DNA from: Alphaproteobacteria bacterium
GTDB taxonomy: Bacteria; Pseudomonadota; Alphaproteobacteria; Micavibrionales; Micavibrionaceae
DNA length: 64,000 nucleotides
Assembly (NCBI GenBank): GCA_028289285.1
Contig: JANQRF010000002.1
Coordinates: 1,116,001-1,180,000 of the forward strand
Reading direction: 5' to 3'
The notes below the pieces were generated by a model that was not told where the DNA came from, did not search any database, and saw only the letters and a program-made list of their open reading frames with translations. The first letter of the stretch is position 1; each line of letters begins with the position of its first letter. Position numbers and translations under genes: made by a program. Of this stretch, positions 57,770-63,749 are shown piece after piece.

Positions 57770-58576
57770 CTAATGCCTTGCAACCATAAGTTTTTTAATC
57801 TCGGCAATAGCTTTGGCCGGGTTGAGACCTTTCGGACAGGCATTGGTACAATTCATAATCGTATGACAACGATAAAGCCGGAAGGGGTCTTCAAGCTGGT
57901 CAAGCCGCTCCCCGGTCGCTTCATCCCGGCTATCAGCAATCCAACGATAAGCTTGCAGCAAAATTGCCGGCCCCATAAAACGGTCTCCGTTCCACCAATA
58001 AGACGGACAGGATGTTGAACAACAAAAACAGAGAATACACCCTGCAGGACCATGCCCATCTTCTCCATTGAGGAGATTCGCATCTTCCGCGCTTTGAAGG
58101 CGCTCTTTGGTTGGCGCCGGGCTATCTGTTTTCATCCAGGGCTCAATAGCCTGGTATTGTGCATAAACATGATTGAGATCAGGCACCAAGTCTTTAACCA
58201 CAGGCATATGCGGTAGTGGTGTTACTTTCACATCGCCGGAAACTTCATCAATCGGCTTTAGGCACGCCAATGTATTACGCCCGTCAATATTCATAGCACA
58301 GGACCCGCAAATCCCTTCACGGCAGGATCGGCGGAAAGTCAGCGTACTGTCTACCTGATCTTTAATATGAATAAGGGCATCCAGAACCATCGGCCCGCAT
58401 TTATCCAGATCAATGGTAAATTCATCCATTTGCGGATTATCCGGCTGGCCGTCTTCTCCGCTTTCCGGATCAAAACGATAAACTTTAAAGGTTTTTTTGC
58501 GCTTGGCATCGTTTGCGGAATCAACCTTTTTTCCAGCTTTTATTTTTGAATTTCGAGGAAGAGTAAATTTCGCCAT
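57770..58576 (-). CDS. sdhB: Succinate dehydrogenase iron-sulfur subunit
   Basis: Complex II electron-transfer subunit. [2Fe-2S] ligands lie in [14 protein letters not shown] and a further Cys in NTLACLKP. [4Fe-4S] ligands lie in [16 protein letters not shown], and the [3Fe-4S] and remaining ligands in [22 protein letters not shown] place the start at the ATG at 58576 (protein begins [10 protein letters not shown]). The N-terminal about 30 residues are a basic extension. It is unusual that sdhB is not next to sdhA: three same-strand genes lie between them. Confidence 0.97.
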
Positions 58577-58656
58577 AGGGAAAATCCTGCTTTCGTTTTG
58601 AAACAAAAGGATACAGGCAAAAGACGCCTTTGTGAAGCGCACAAAGCAGCCGGTAT

Positions 58657-59160
58657 TCACTCTATTTCGGCAGAAGGACCGGGGTTACGGGCGCTGGCTT
58701 TTATGGATCTGGATACATAAAGATTACGCAGAGATTGTATCTGGTCTTCTGATAACCCTTCCTGGCGGAGCATCACAATATCACGCACAGGGACATTCGG
58801 CACCTGTCCGGCATGCGAAGCTGTATCAAAGGTTTGCTCGACACGGTCAAGACTGGAAGGGTCATGTTCCATGCCCGGTGGCCGCCAGGCATTCGGATCG
58901 CCGGAAATATTATGCTCAGGATCTTTTGGCCCCTTACCCTCTACAGATGATTTACGAGAATCGCCTTCCCCGTCTTGTATGACTTCGAGCGCCATAACCC
59001 GGATATGTGCTTCCCAGTGGCTGCCATGCTCAATTAATTCTGCTAATTCTACCATCAAAGACGGGTTTTCAAGCAAGAGCGTTGCACATTCGCGCCCTGC
59101 CCGCGCAATCGCCCGCGCAGGGGTTGAGCCACACCCTTTAAAAAACAGCATTGTGGTCAT
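58657..59160 (-). CDS. Hypothetical protein in the sdhA-sdhB insertion
   Basis: About 167 residues, no membrane segment. N-terminal helical part ([22 protein letters not shown] and [19 protein letters not shown]), a charged Gly/Asp/Pro-rich middle, and a C-terminal helix containing [20 protein letters not shown]. No family recognised. A GTG at 59193 is an alternative start, 6 bases after the stop of the previous gene. It is 80 bases before sdhB and reads the same way. Confidence 0.65.
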
Positions 59161-59199
59161 GGTTTTTAGTATAAACCCGAAGTGCCCCGGCACAAAGGC

Positions 59200-59880
59200 T
59201 TAAGCGGCAAGCTCCAGCGTATACACAGATCCGCGTGGCATACGATGAATAGGCATTAGTTCTTCAGGTTTATAGTCCTCTTCATGCCTATGACGGATGA
59301 CATTGTCATTATCGGCGGTCAGTAAATCCTGCATCCATTCGATTGTCGGCCTCCAAACAGAGTATTCCAGGGAATCAAATGGAACCGGCGTCATGTGCAC
59401 CTGTAAAGGTTCAGGCGCTGCATGTGATACCGTATAAAAATCTTCATATGTTTTTGCTGCCATAAAGGGCATAACAGTTGCAGAAGGCTCTATCACAATA
59501 TCTTCAATAAGATCCATGCGCATGGCCTTGCGATGTTCTTCATTCCACTCTTCCTCAACCCGCTCGTGAATACGCTGTATCGCCGCGTGTTTTTCTTCCA
59601 TATCCTTATCATGTGCTATTTTGCGCCGCTCATATTCTTGTTCATCTTCCAAAGCACGCTTATCCTTCAGGACACGCGCCGCAAGACTTTTTTGATCTTC
59701 CAAAGACATAAAGCCCACAGTCACAGTCGCTGTCCATGTGCCTTCAGCCGTCATCTGAACCGATTCAATGGAAGAAACCTGTTTGAGGCCTTCATCCAGA
59801 ATATTGGCAAGCCCCGCACGCGCCTGCGCGAGCGCTGCTTCTTTACTCTCCCCGGATCCAACATGTGTAATCGTATGCAT
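59200..59880 (-). CDS. Hypothetical protein with dodecin-like N-terminus and coiled coil, C-terminal LAA
   Basis: 226 residues, cytoplasmic. Residues 1-60 look like a small beta-alpha-beta unit (HVGSGESKEAALAQARAGL, then SVQMTAEGTWTATVTVGF), reminiscent of dodecin-like or SIMPL-like folds. Residues about 65-120 are a highly charged coiled coil (KDKRALEDEQEYERRKIAHD). The rest is unrecognised. The protein ends YTLELAA, and the adjacent GGDEF-like protein ends GTLQLAA; both tails resemble the ssrA-type ClpXP degron. No function assigned. Confidence 0.7.
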   Translation of the reverse strand: MHTITHVGSGESKEAALAQARAGLANILDEGLKQVSSIESVQMTAEGTWTATVTVGFMSLEDQKSLAARVLKDKRALEDEQEYERRKIAHDKDMEEKHAAIQRIHERVEEEWNEEHRKAMRMDLIEDIVIEPSATVMPFMAAKTYEDFYTVSHAAPEPLQVHMTPVPFDSLEYSVWRPTIEWMQDLLTADNDNVIRHRHEEDYKPEELMPIHRMPRGSVYTLELAA

Positions 59881-60025: not shown

Positions 60026-61897
60026 CTAAGCCGCCAATTGGAGAGTACCAAGCGGTCGTTGCTTCGGGAATTCCAAAATTTTGCTTTGGTCAGAGGAAGC
60101 GACAGGATGCACCCGAACATCAACAGAATCAAGCTGTCCGTCCGGACTACCGACTATCATAGGCGCTTTATTTTTGAATAATTGCTCTATTTCATCCGTT
60201 ATATTATTTGCCCCTTGTCTGGGTACAGAGGATAATAAAACCAATTCATTGCCGCCAATACGCCCTATGATTAAGCTTTTATATTCAAATTTGTCTCGCA
60301 GACGATGTGCAATTTCTTTTAAAATAATGTCGCCCGCCTGATGACCATATTGTTCGGTAAAAGCTTTAAATTGCTCTATATTTAGCTTTACCATTACCAA
60401 ACCATTGGGCTTGCCGTCATTTCCAGGAGCTTCTTGTTGAGCGGCTTTGAGCGCTTCCCTTACACCTCTGGGCGTGTGAAGACCAGTTAACGGATCTGTA
60501 AGCTTGGCGAATTTTGAGACCTCTCCAAAATACATCGCTAAGTCATTTTGCGGATTGAGAATATCTGAAGCACTTATAACGCTTGTTTCAGCATTCAGTG
60601 TTAAGCTTGTTTTTATTCCTATATGTAGTGCTGGAACAGGCTGCTCCGCATACTCGGCTTCTTGCCGAATATCCACATTATGACGACGGTTCAGCAGAAC
60701 AGCCCCGCAAGTTCCGTCGGAATGTTTTTTGGAAAAGATACGGCTTAAACCCGCAGCGTTAGGGGCCGTATCTTCTAAAAGGATTGTTCTGCCGTCATCT
60801 TCTAATCGAATATGATGCGGCCTTGCATCCGGGTTGGTTGACTGTAACCAGTGAAACCAATCAATGCGCGTCGGCACGGGAAGGTTTTTGTCATTATTTT
60901 CAAGAAGAGTAAATCGATGAAAGCCTGCATAACGGGGACTAGGGAAAACATACCTCAATGATACTGCACGTTTTGAACGTGAGGAAGGATTGCGCTTACT
61001 TTTATTTTTCGCGGCTTCAGCATCTTTTTTATCGGCCTCTTCACGCTGTCTCCTTTCTTCTTCTCTTTTAGCTTCTTCTGCCTCGTTTGCCTTCTTTCTC
61101 TCATCATCCCTGCGTTTCATTTTCTCAAAGTACACACGTTGTACTTTTTTTACGGCTTCTTCATTTACTTTCTCTAATTGATCCAAAGCAGGCGTTTCAA
61201 TGCCATATTTTTCTTTAAAACCTTTTAATACATTTCTAAGTGATTTAATTTGGTCTACCTGAATAGTAATTTCATTCGGCTCGCTGGCATATAAAAAGCT
61301 ATCTTCTTTTCCGTACAAGACAAAAGAATCAGGGTCTTGAATGGCATGTTCTGCAAGTTTTTGAAAAAAACCGTGAAAAGAACGAATTAAATCTTTAGAT
61401 GTCGTATGCGTATCACACAGAGGTTTTAAAAGCTCATGAAAATCTTTTGCCAGCCGGGCTTCAGGGCAACCCAAATCAGGATACATATAAGCTAAATTAT
61501 CATCACCAAGAAGATCCATAAGGGAAACATCGTCCGGCAACCCTTCTAATCGTTTGAGAATATCGCGCTGAGAACAAAAATCAATTTTGCCGTCATGAGG
61601 AGGATTAGGATTCCCTTCTATCTTTTTATAAAAATCCCAATTTCCAGCCCCTTTTATATTTGCTCTAATACTCTCTCTCCGATCTGCCGTAGAAAATATT
61701 CTTTCAACACCTTCTTTCACAAGACCTTTAAGATACTTATCAAACAATTTAACGTCGGAAACAGCAACTTTGGAAGCTGAAGTCACCAGACCTACAGGGT
61801 TACCTGTTGTAGCGGTGGCCCCTGCAGCAACAGCCGCACCTTGTAAAAACCGGCGTTTGGAAGGATCTTCCAACCCGTTTTTGTTATCTTTAGCCAT
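60026..61897 (-). CDS. Tat-type signal protein with degenerate C-terminal GGDEF domain
   Basis: 623 residues. The N-terminus contains SKRRFLQGAAVAAGATATTG, a twin-arginine-like motif followed by a weakly hydrophobic stretch. The middle is unrecognised, with a highly charged coiled coil (about residues 250-310) and a Ser/Arg-rich linker. Residues about 460-600 form a GGDEF-type domain: KLTDPLTGLHTPRGVREAL, then NIEQFKAFTEQYGHQAGDIILKE, where the first metal-binding Asp is Asn. The signature is RIGGNELVLL in place of GGDEF (near residue 546). No RxxD inhibitory site is seen five residues upstream. Diguanylate cyclase activity is therefore unlikely. The ATG at 61897 is preceded by AGAAG. It directly follows sdhA by 61 bases on the same strand. 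Confidence 0.78.
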   Translation of the reverse strand: MAKDNKNGLEDPSKRRFLQGAAVAAGATATTGNPVGLVTSASKVAVSDVKLFDKYLKGLVKEGVERIFSTADRRESIRANIKGAGNWDFYKKIEGNPNPPHDGKIDFCSQRDILKRLEGLPDDVSLMDLLGDDNLAYMYPDLGCPEARLAKDFHELLKPLCDTHTTSKDLIRSFHGFFQKLAEHAIQDPDSFVLYGKEDSFLYASEPNEITIQVDQIKSLRNVLKGFKEKYGIETPALDQLEKVNEEAVKKVQRVYFEKMKRRDDERKKANEAEEAKREEERRQREEADKKDAEAAKNKSKRNPSSRSKRAVSLRYVFPSPRYAGFHRFTLLENNDKNLPVPTRIDWFHWLQSTNPDARPHHIRLEDDGRTILLEDTAPNAAGLSRIFSKKHSDGTCGAVLLNRRHNVDIRQEAEYAEQPVPALHIGIKTSLTLNAETSVISASDILNPQNDLAMYFGEVSKFAKLTDPLTGLHTPRGVREALKAAQQEAPGNDGKPNGLVMVKLNIEQFKAFTEQYGHQAGDIILKEIAHRLRDKFEYKSLIIGRIGGNELVLLSSVPRQGANNITDEIEQLFKNKAPMIVGSPDGQLDSVDVRVHPVASSDQSKILEFPKQRPLGTLQLAA

Positions 61898-61958: not shown

Positions 61959-63749
61959 TTAATAGACCCGCGCTTTAGGCGGGACGGCTTCGACTTCGTT
62001 CGTCAGCGTGTGCAGGATAACAGGGCGGTCACCGAGTTTGGCCTTGCCCTTGTCATCAACCCAGATGGTGGTGTGGTTCATCCATTTATCATCATCGCGC
62101 TCGGTAAAGTCTTCGCGCGCGTGCGCGCCGCGACTCTCGGTCCGATTAACAGCGGAATAAAGCGTCGCCACGGCCTGACCGAGCAGATTATCCAGCTCCA
62201 GCGTTTCCACCAGATCGGTATTGAAAATCATAGAGCGGTCTTCGATTGATAAGTCAGCTTTACCCGCAAATGACTTATCAATTTTCTCGCAGCCTTCCTG
62301 AAGCGTTTCGCCTGTGCGGAAGACGGCAGCATGGTCCTGCATCGTACGCTGCATGTCGTCACGCAGGTCGGCCGTGCGGGTGCCGCCTTTCACATTCCTG
62401 AAGTGGTCGAGACGGTCCAGCGCCTTGGTCCCATCATCACTTCCAAACGGTTTATGCGGCGCGCCGGGCGCAACGGTTTCAGCGGCGCGGATCGCCGCAG
62501 CGCGGCCAAACACCACCAGGTCAAGAAGCGAGTTGGAGCCAAGACGGTTCGCTCCGTGCACGGAGACACAGGCCGCTTCGCCGATCGCCATCAGGCCGGG
62601 CACAATTTTATTCGGATCATCGTTTGTCGGGTTTAAAACTTCCGTGCGGAAATTGGTCGGAATGCCACCCATGTTGTAATGCACAGTTGGTAGAACCGGG
62701 ATTGGTTCTTTCGTGACATCCGCGCCTGCAAAAATGCGGGCAGATTCGGCAATACCCGGCAGGCGGGAGTGAATAATATCCGGATCCAGATGCATCAGGT
62801 TCAAATGAATATGATCATTGCGATCCCCCACCCCGCGCCCTTCACGGATTTCAATGGTCATAGACCGGGAGACCACATCACGGGAGGCCAGATCTTTCGC
62901 GCTCGGTGCATAGCGTTCCATGAAGCGCTCGCCTTCACTATTGGTCAGATAACCGCCTTCCCCACGCACACCTTCTGTAATCAGGCAGCCTGCGCCGTAA
63001 ATCCCAGTCGGGTGAAATTGTACAAACTCCATATCCTGCAGCGGCAGACCTGCGCGTAACACCATCGCATTCCCGTCGCCCGTGCAGGTATGGGCAGAGG
63101 TGCAGGAGAAATAGGCGCGGCCATACCCGCCTGTGGCGAGAATGGTTTGATGCGCACGGAAGCGATGAATGGTTCCATCATCCAGGTTCCAGGCCATCAC
63201 GCCCAGACATTCACCTTCATCATTCATAATCAGATCAAGCGCAAAATATTCGATAAAAAACTCGGCGCGGTGTTTCAGCGCCTGCTGATACAGCGTATGC
63301 AAAATCGCATGCCCCGTCCGGTCGGCCGCTGCGCATGTCCGCTGCGCCGTACCTTCTCCATAATGGGTGGTCATACCACCAAAGGCACGCTGATAGATTT
63401 TTCCTTCGGCCGTGCGTGAAAACGGCACGCCGTAATGTTCGAGCTCATAGATCGCCGGGATCGCTTCGCGGCACATATATTCAATCGCATCCTGATCGCC
63501 GAGCCAGTCAGAGCCTTTAATCGTATCGTAAAAATGAAAGCGCCAGTCATCCTCACCCATATTGCCAAGCGCCGCTGAAATCCCACCCTGCGCAGCAACC
63601 GTATGCGAACGGGTCGGAAAAACTTTTGAAATTAGAGCTGTGCGCAGGCCCTTCTCCGCGCAGCCAAATCCGGCGCGCAAACCTGCTCCACCAGCTCCGA
63701 CAACAACAACGTCATATTCATGATCTATGATTTCGTAATTTTCAGTCAT
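61959..63749 (-). CDS. sdhA: Succinate dehydrogenase flavoprotein subunit
   Basis: Catalytic FAD subunit of complex II, 596 residues. It has an N-terminal Rossmann motif [16 protein letters not shown], the covalent-FAD histidine in [23 protein letters not shown]-type motif [14 protein letters not shown], substrate residues in [13 protein letters not shown], and [21 protein letters not shown]. It starts 1 base after the sdhD stop. sdhB does not follow; three other genes intervene. Confidence 0.98.

Follow-up and report, generated by a model that had tools for sequence, protein, structure and literature searches.

The window, the whole stretch of 64,000 nucleotides that was analysed, comes from an alphaproteobacterium of the Micavibrionaceae. 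At 60026-61897 it holds an open reading frame that has an ATG start and runs uninterrupted over 623 aa. This frame begins 61 bases after sdhA, and sdhA, the 623-aa frame, two small genes and sdhB all lie on one strand. The features discussed below are the following.

61959..63749 (-), sdhA, immediately upstream of the 623-aa frame
60026..61897 (-), 623-aa frame: Tat-type N-terminus, helical region, charged helix, small DW module, degenerate GGDEF tail
61841..61861 (-), SKRRFLQ at residues 13-19, a Tat motif in its KR form; SRRNFLK and SRRSFIR are the aligned stretches in the relatives
61010..61189 (-), residues 237-296, one long predicted helix
60764..60970 (-), residues 310-378, predicted beta-beta-alpha-beta-beta module that includes PTRIDWFHWLQ, shared across the family (pLDDT per ten-residue block, about 53-76)
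60671..60691 (-), NRRHNVD at residues 403-409, close to the family's own C-terminus, with the GGDEF part after it
60143..60499 (-), GGDEF domain by Pfam (residues 467-585), with N506, T514 and N550 substituted, no RxxD and no canonical C-terminal helix
59200-59880 (-), small orphan gene (226 aa), 3' of the 623-aa frame
58657-59193 (-), second small orphan gene (178 aa), 3' of the 623-aa frame
57770..58660 (-), sdhB, beyond the two small orphan genes
L046:784-1935, paralogue encoded elsewhere in this genome, with tsf and pyrH on either side

Neither small neighbour (59200-59880, 58657-59193) gave any match in Pfam. The 623-aa protein and the first of these neighbours both end in the pattern TL(Q/E)LAA (window 60026-60046 and 59200-59220), which has only these two matches genome-wide, with one for a backwards-read control. 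A gene at the same place in genome G027 ends in TLDLVA. An ssrA tag was considered as the source of the TLxLAA ends and rejected, since the tmRNA tag of this genome ends in AIAA and differs.

The content of the sdhA-sdhB gap differs across the family. In a genome of the same genus (that of G001), the gap holds a 153-aa protein (L060:3170-3631) that resembles a short LOV/PAS photoreceptor; it carries the motif GRNCRFLQ, which we take to be a sign of such photoreceptors. About 1 kb past the end of the window, upstream of the sdh genes, lies a likely Tat-signal protein that by eye resembles MsrB (MNRRNFIGFLGG, L050:1036-1551).

An orphan family with a Tat-type N-terminus

Residues 1-412 constitute a tiny orphan family, of which three members are known here. 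When the whole protein was searched against 95 genomes (its own and relatives), one other genome, G037, gave a match over residues 4-413 at 30% identity, and the remaining matches among those listed fell on the GGDEF part. Residues 1-267 alone found matches in 2 of the 142 genomes of the order. A profile built from the protein and its G037 homologue then recovered a paralogue in its own genome. With the resulting three-row profile, strong matches were again confined to 2 of the 142 genomes of the order, four more at E <= 0.1 being weak and short. Among 398 genomes of the phylum, it matched the protein's own genome and, over the first 101 profile positions only, two other places. A collection of 84,980 species yielded a single locus, L058, on JAJOJU010000019.1 of an Alphaproteobacteria MAG; the 377-aa protein there reads identically to that of G037. 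Viral contigs gave no match to the three-row profile, and the same-genus genome G001 (90% complete) gave none to either residues 1-267 or the profile.

Both relatives manage without a GGDEF domain. The G037 homologue, from another genus, is 377 aa long, starts MKTSRRNFLK and lies directly downstream of sdhA. The paralogue (MNLSRRSFIRLSG) is 383 aa long and starts MNLSRRSFIR. Its position between tsf and pyrH means that both family genes of this genome stand among housekeeping genes on the same strand.

The first-pass annotation had picked out SKRRFLQ at the N-terminus and read it as a possible Tat signal. The motif is indeed there, at residues 13-19, and the canonical RR motifs of both relatives align with it, which supports the predicted Tat reading by homology. 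The genome also encodes TatC (G000:C1:174752-175411, E = 5.5e-72). The pattern [RK]RxPhiPhi occurs exactly once per protein in all three members and always N-terminally. In a single-protein scan, the TAT_signal profile PF10518 matched residues 12-30 with E = 0.0033 and 17.8 bits, under the cut-off of 22.7; in a scan of the whole genome the same residues scored 22.2 bits, or 22.8 with neighbours, and two of the only four places at E <= 1 are this family's genes. When the family profile was compared with PDB sequences, the first row was 2pq4_B, a Tat signal peptide of NapA, although its E of 0.089 is weak; Tat leaders of formate dehydrogenase came among the lower rows (E about 2.4). After the N-terminus no segment reaches transmembrane strength, the highest 19-residue hydropathy mean anywhere being 1.07. 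We also looked for a homologous family with a plainly cytoplasmic N-terminus and found none; the N-termini of the relatives are more Tat-like than that of the 623-aa protein. On the strength of these comparisons, Tat targeting is a supported trait of the family.

The lysine in place of the first arginine is atypical. According to the portion of a 2019 review seen here, no native Tat cargo with KR is known other than TtrB (PMC6708511), so the signal of the 623-aa protein could be weak or dead. In the part seen of a mutational study, Tat transport was not blocked, but was slower for SufI, when a single Arg of the SufI signal or the first Arg of the TorA signal was changed to Lys (PMC1182353).

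All three members share the charged helix and the small module with [PL]T[RK][VI]DW. Modelled at full length without an alignment, the protein reached a mean pLDDT of 42.9, and residues 1-412 modelled from two sequences reached 55.4. The AlphaFold prediction, weak overall, has one helix at about 237-296, with pLDDT up to 90. The coiled coil that had been proposed for the middle of the protein was not borne out. Over the 45 residues 258-302, 91% are E, K, R, D, Q or A and 2% are hydrophobic, a composition that does not supply a hydrophobic heptad; the most charged 45-mers of the relatives have 82% and 64% of these residues. Because the helix is nearly all-charged, oligomerisation does not follow, leaving the oligomers once suggested from the coiled coil unsupported. 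By its composition, a single-helix spacer appears a better fit for this helix than a coiled coil.

Foldseek against the PDB returned no matches at E <= 0.001. No Pfam cofactor family matched the protein, and neither a cofactor nor a periplasmic partner was apparent. PHROGs matched only the GGDEF part, besides one weak match to residues 192-270 (E = 0.073). PADLOC gave nothing for the 623-aa protein and, for the G037 protein, one weak match to DruG (E = 0.0022) in the charged region (residues 236-312).

The three proteins also share an NRR motif, which marks where the family is likely to end. The G037 frame (L058:5155-6402) has an in-frame TAA before the conserved NRR..DLN motif; read through, it gives LPNRRMGADLN, which matches FPNRRDGIDLN at the end of the paralogue and LLNRRHNVDI in the 623-aa protein. 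On the same contig sdhA is also frameshifted, indicating that the G037 sequence is imperfect, and its TAA reflects either a pseudogene or an assembly error. Since the motif lies near the end of the paralogue, the family's natural C-terminus is probably near residue 412. A linker of about 50 residues leads from there to the GGDEF part.

The GGDEF tail

The tail matches PF00990 over residues 467-585 (E = 9.2e-18; 65 bits against a cut-off of 23.8), covering profile positions 3-118 of 161 only. We compared it with 47 GGDEF domains in the same order, naming its metal-ligand and guanine sites by PleD numbering, which we take to apply here. These domains came from the loci collected for the analysis, as best matches to this domain or hand-chosen stretches, and are not random. 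The number excludes duplicates and one spurious reading-frame match (L011, frame 1), which were dropped from the tree and the residue counts; two GGDEF loci of the same genome, L091 and L093, are absent because the motif filter saw no signature in either. A near-canonical GG signature was demanded at collection, so the comparison set is tilted towards intact domains and its intact count is high.

Against this set, the losses are extensive. The first metal position is N506, within KLNIEQF, and is Asp in all 47; the GG[DE] position is N550, within the signature GGNEL (residues 548-552), and is acidic in all 47; the guanine-contact position is T514 and is Asn in all 47. The RxxD I-site (42 of 47) is replaced by YKSL, and the C-terminal ADxxLY..K helix (46 of 47) is missing. 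DxLTGL, GHxxGD, RxGG and the Glu after GGN are still present. The domain had been called degenerate at first sight for its GGNEL and the Asn at the first metal Asp, and this description holds. With the metal ligands, the guanine Asn and RxxD all lost, the domain is unlikely to be an active cyclase or an I-site receptor.

The same losses bear on the fallback offered in the first-pass annotation, a c-di-GMP or GTP receptor, which they disfavour. In its fuller form this alternative holds that the KR signal is dead, that the protein is cytoplasmic and that its GGDEF part acts, as CdgA does in Bdellovibrio, as a receptor for c-di-GMP or a nucleotide. Degenerate GGDEF receptors do exist: for CdgA, whose signature is GVNEF, the sections of the report consulted give an apparent Kd for c-di-GMP of about 2 uM (PMC3271064), and the KR signal is atypical by the review excerpt cited above (PMC6708511). 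However, those sections describe an RxxD retained by CdgA where the 623-aa protein has YKSL, the GTP ligands at 506, 514 and 550 are gone, the N-terminus is Tat-like in all three family members, and Arg-to-Lys mutants of the SufI and TorA signals still export in the part of that study seen here (PMC1182353). We consider a cytoplasmic receptor very improbable.

Whether the tail is still a folded domain was judged from its conserved columns. Of the 28 hydrophobic columns that extend to a little beyond the GG motif, 24 are kept, indicating that the first part of the domain still looks folded; after the signature 5 of 12 are kept, in a region where the alignment is uncertain. A frameshift behind the missing C-terminal helix was sought and rejected, as the three frames of the 3' end plus 145 bases downstream hold no remnant.

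These columns also weigh on a second alternative, that the tail is a decaying passenger, a functionless fused domain heading for loss. Its end branch in the tree is 4.94 against a median of 0.29, and it keeps 18 of 33 near-invariant columns where L066, the only other domain below 85%, keeps 27 of 32. The poorly alignable C-terminal third, the lack of a remnant in the other downstream frames and the two relatives that manage without a tail point the same way. Yet the 623-aa frame is intact, and neutral drift over such a branch should have erased the hydrophobic core that is kept in the first two thirds. On balance, we regard simple decay as unlikely.

As to where the tail came from, the searches turned up no relative of the GGDEF part at strain level. 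The gene is AT-rich at third positions in both of its parts (GC3 of 0.31 and 0.35; sdhA, 0.58; paralogue, 0.32). One conceivable source, compatible with the other readings, is the GGDEF gene that some relatives carry immediately after sdhA, joined by a local gene fusion. We fetched 30 sdhA loci, from 69 of the 71 genomes with a match, and thus had 29 besides that of the window. Such a gene follows sdhA in three of these 29 (L062, L066 and L081), with sdhB seen past it in two (L062 and L066), although many of the 29 loci stop short of sdhB. The three genes constitute one clade (98/97). However, the tree fails to place the domain under study, three groupings all survive AU tests (gap genes, P = 0.417; short genes, P = 0.381; 480-aa genes, P = 0.213), and its best matches by BLAST score are the 480-aa cyclases. 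A local fusion is thus only a tentative, somewhat doubtful origin.

Interpretation and known systems

We favour, at a probability of roughly 0.6, the reading that Tat sends this orphan 623-aa protein to the envelope and that its GGDEF tail, acquired late and catalytically dead, has a non-enzymatic role or is tolerated. Proteins of this family would consist of a Tat signal (a natural KR variant in the member studied here), a helical region, the charged helix as a possible spacer, and the beta-beta-alpha-beta-beta module. In this member only, a GGDEF domain would have been added behind the natural C-terminus and would then have lost catalysis, the I-site and the last helix. As the only export signal is N-terminal and no membrane span comes after it, the tail would be periplasmic, where it would not be expected to meet GTP. 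It would most likely act as a folded non-enzymatic piece, such as a binding surface or a stabilising cap, or could simply be tolerated. The sequence features, the homology, the lack of the domain in the relatives and the residue losses are direct observations, whereas export, this order of events and the role of the tail are what we infer. A more specific version, in which a native KR-type Tat signal carries the dead fold to the periplasm and the fold now serves the envelope family as a module for assembly or for binding something other than nucleotides, is possible but rather less than an even bet.

If export is real, a GGDEF fold would be at work away from the compartment where its substrate and product are located, and the locus would provide a rare native KR Tat signal as well. 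The role of the tail could then be approached by its removal, two relatives being without it. If export is not real, this is one more inactive GGDEF protein.

A phrase-level literature search found no GGDEF described as periplasmic, extracellular, exported or secreted, and no diguanylate cyclase GGDEF with a Tat signal peptide. The precedents found for Tat with GGDEF are, in the portions of the literature seen, predictions. In the part of a survey of Acidithiobacillia seen here, 4 of 387 GGDEF-EAL proteins and 0 of 206 GGDEF-only proteins had a predicted Tat signal (PMC6416229). The predicted Tat-targeted Acidithiobacillus proteins combine a Tat signal with GGDEF, as does ours, but contain EAL as well and in A. 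caldus are partnered by GCS-GAF; the N-terminal family of the 623-aa protein was not seen in that part of the survey (PMC6416229). In TtrB of Salmonella, too, Lys replaces the first Arg of the motif. TtrB is, by the sections consulted, a tetrathionate reductase subunit (PMC1182353, PMC6708511), whereas the 623-aa protein matches no cofactor family in Pfam. CdgA shares the dead GG(D/E)EF signature but has RxxD and binds c-di-GMP, as far as the report was seen (PMC3271064); the 623-aa protein has no RxxD and is likely exported. Compared with the diguanylate cyclases of PF00990, the fold can be recognised until shortly after the GG motif. It differs from them in its D-to-N and D/E-to-N metal ligands and Asn-to-Thr guanine site, in having neither I-site nor final helix, and in being fused behind a Tat-type protein.
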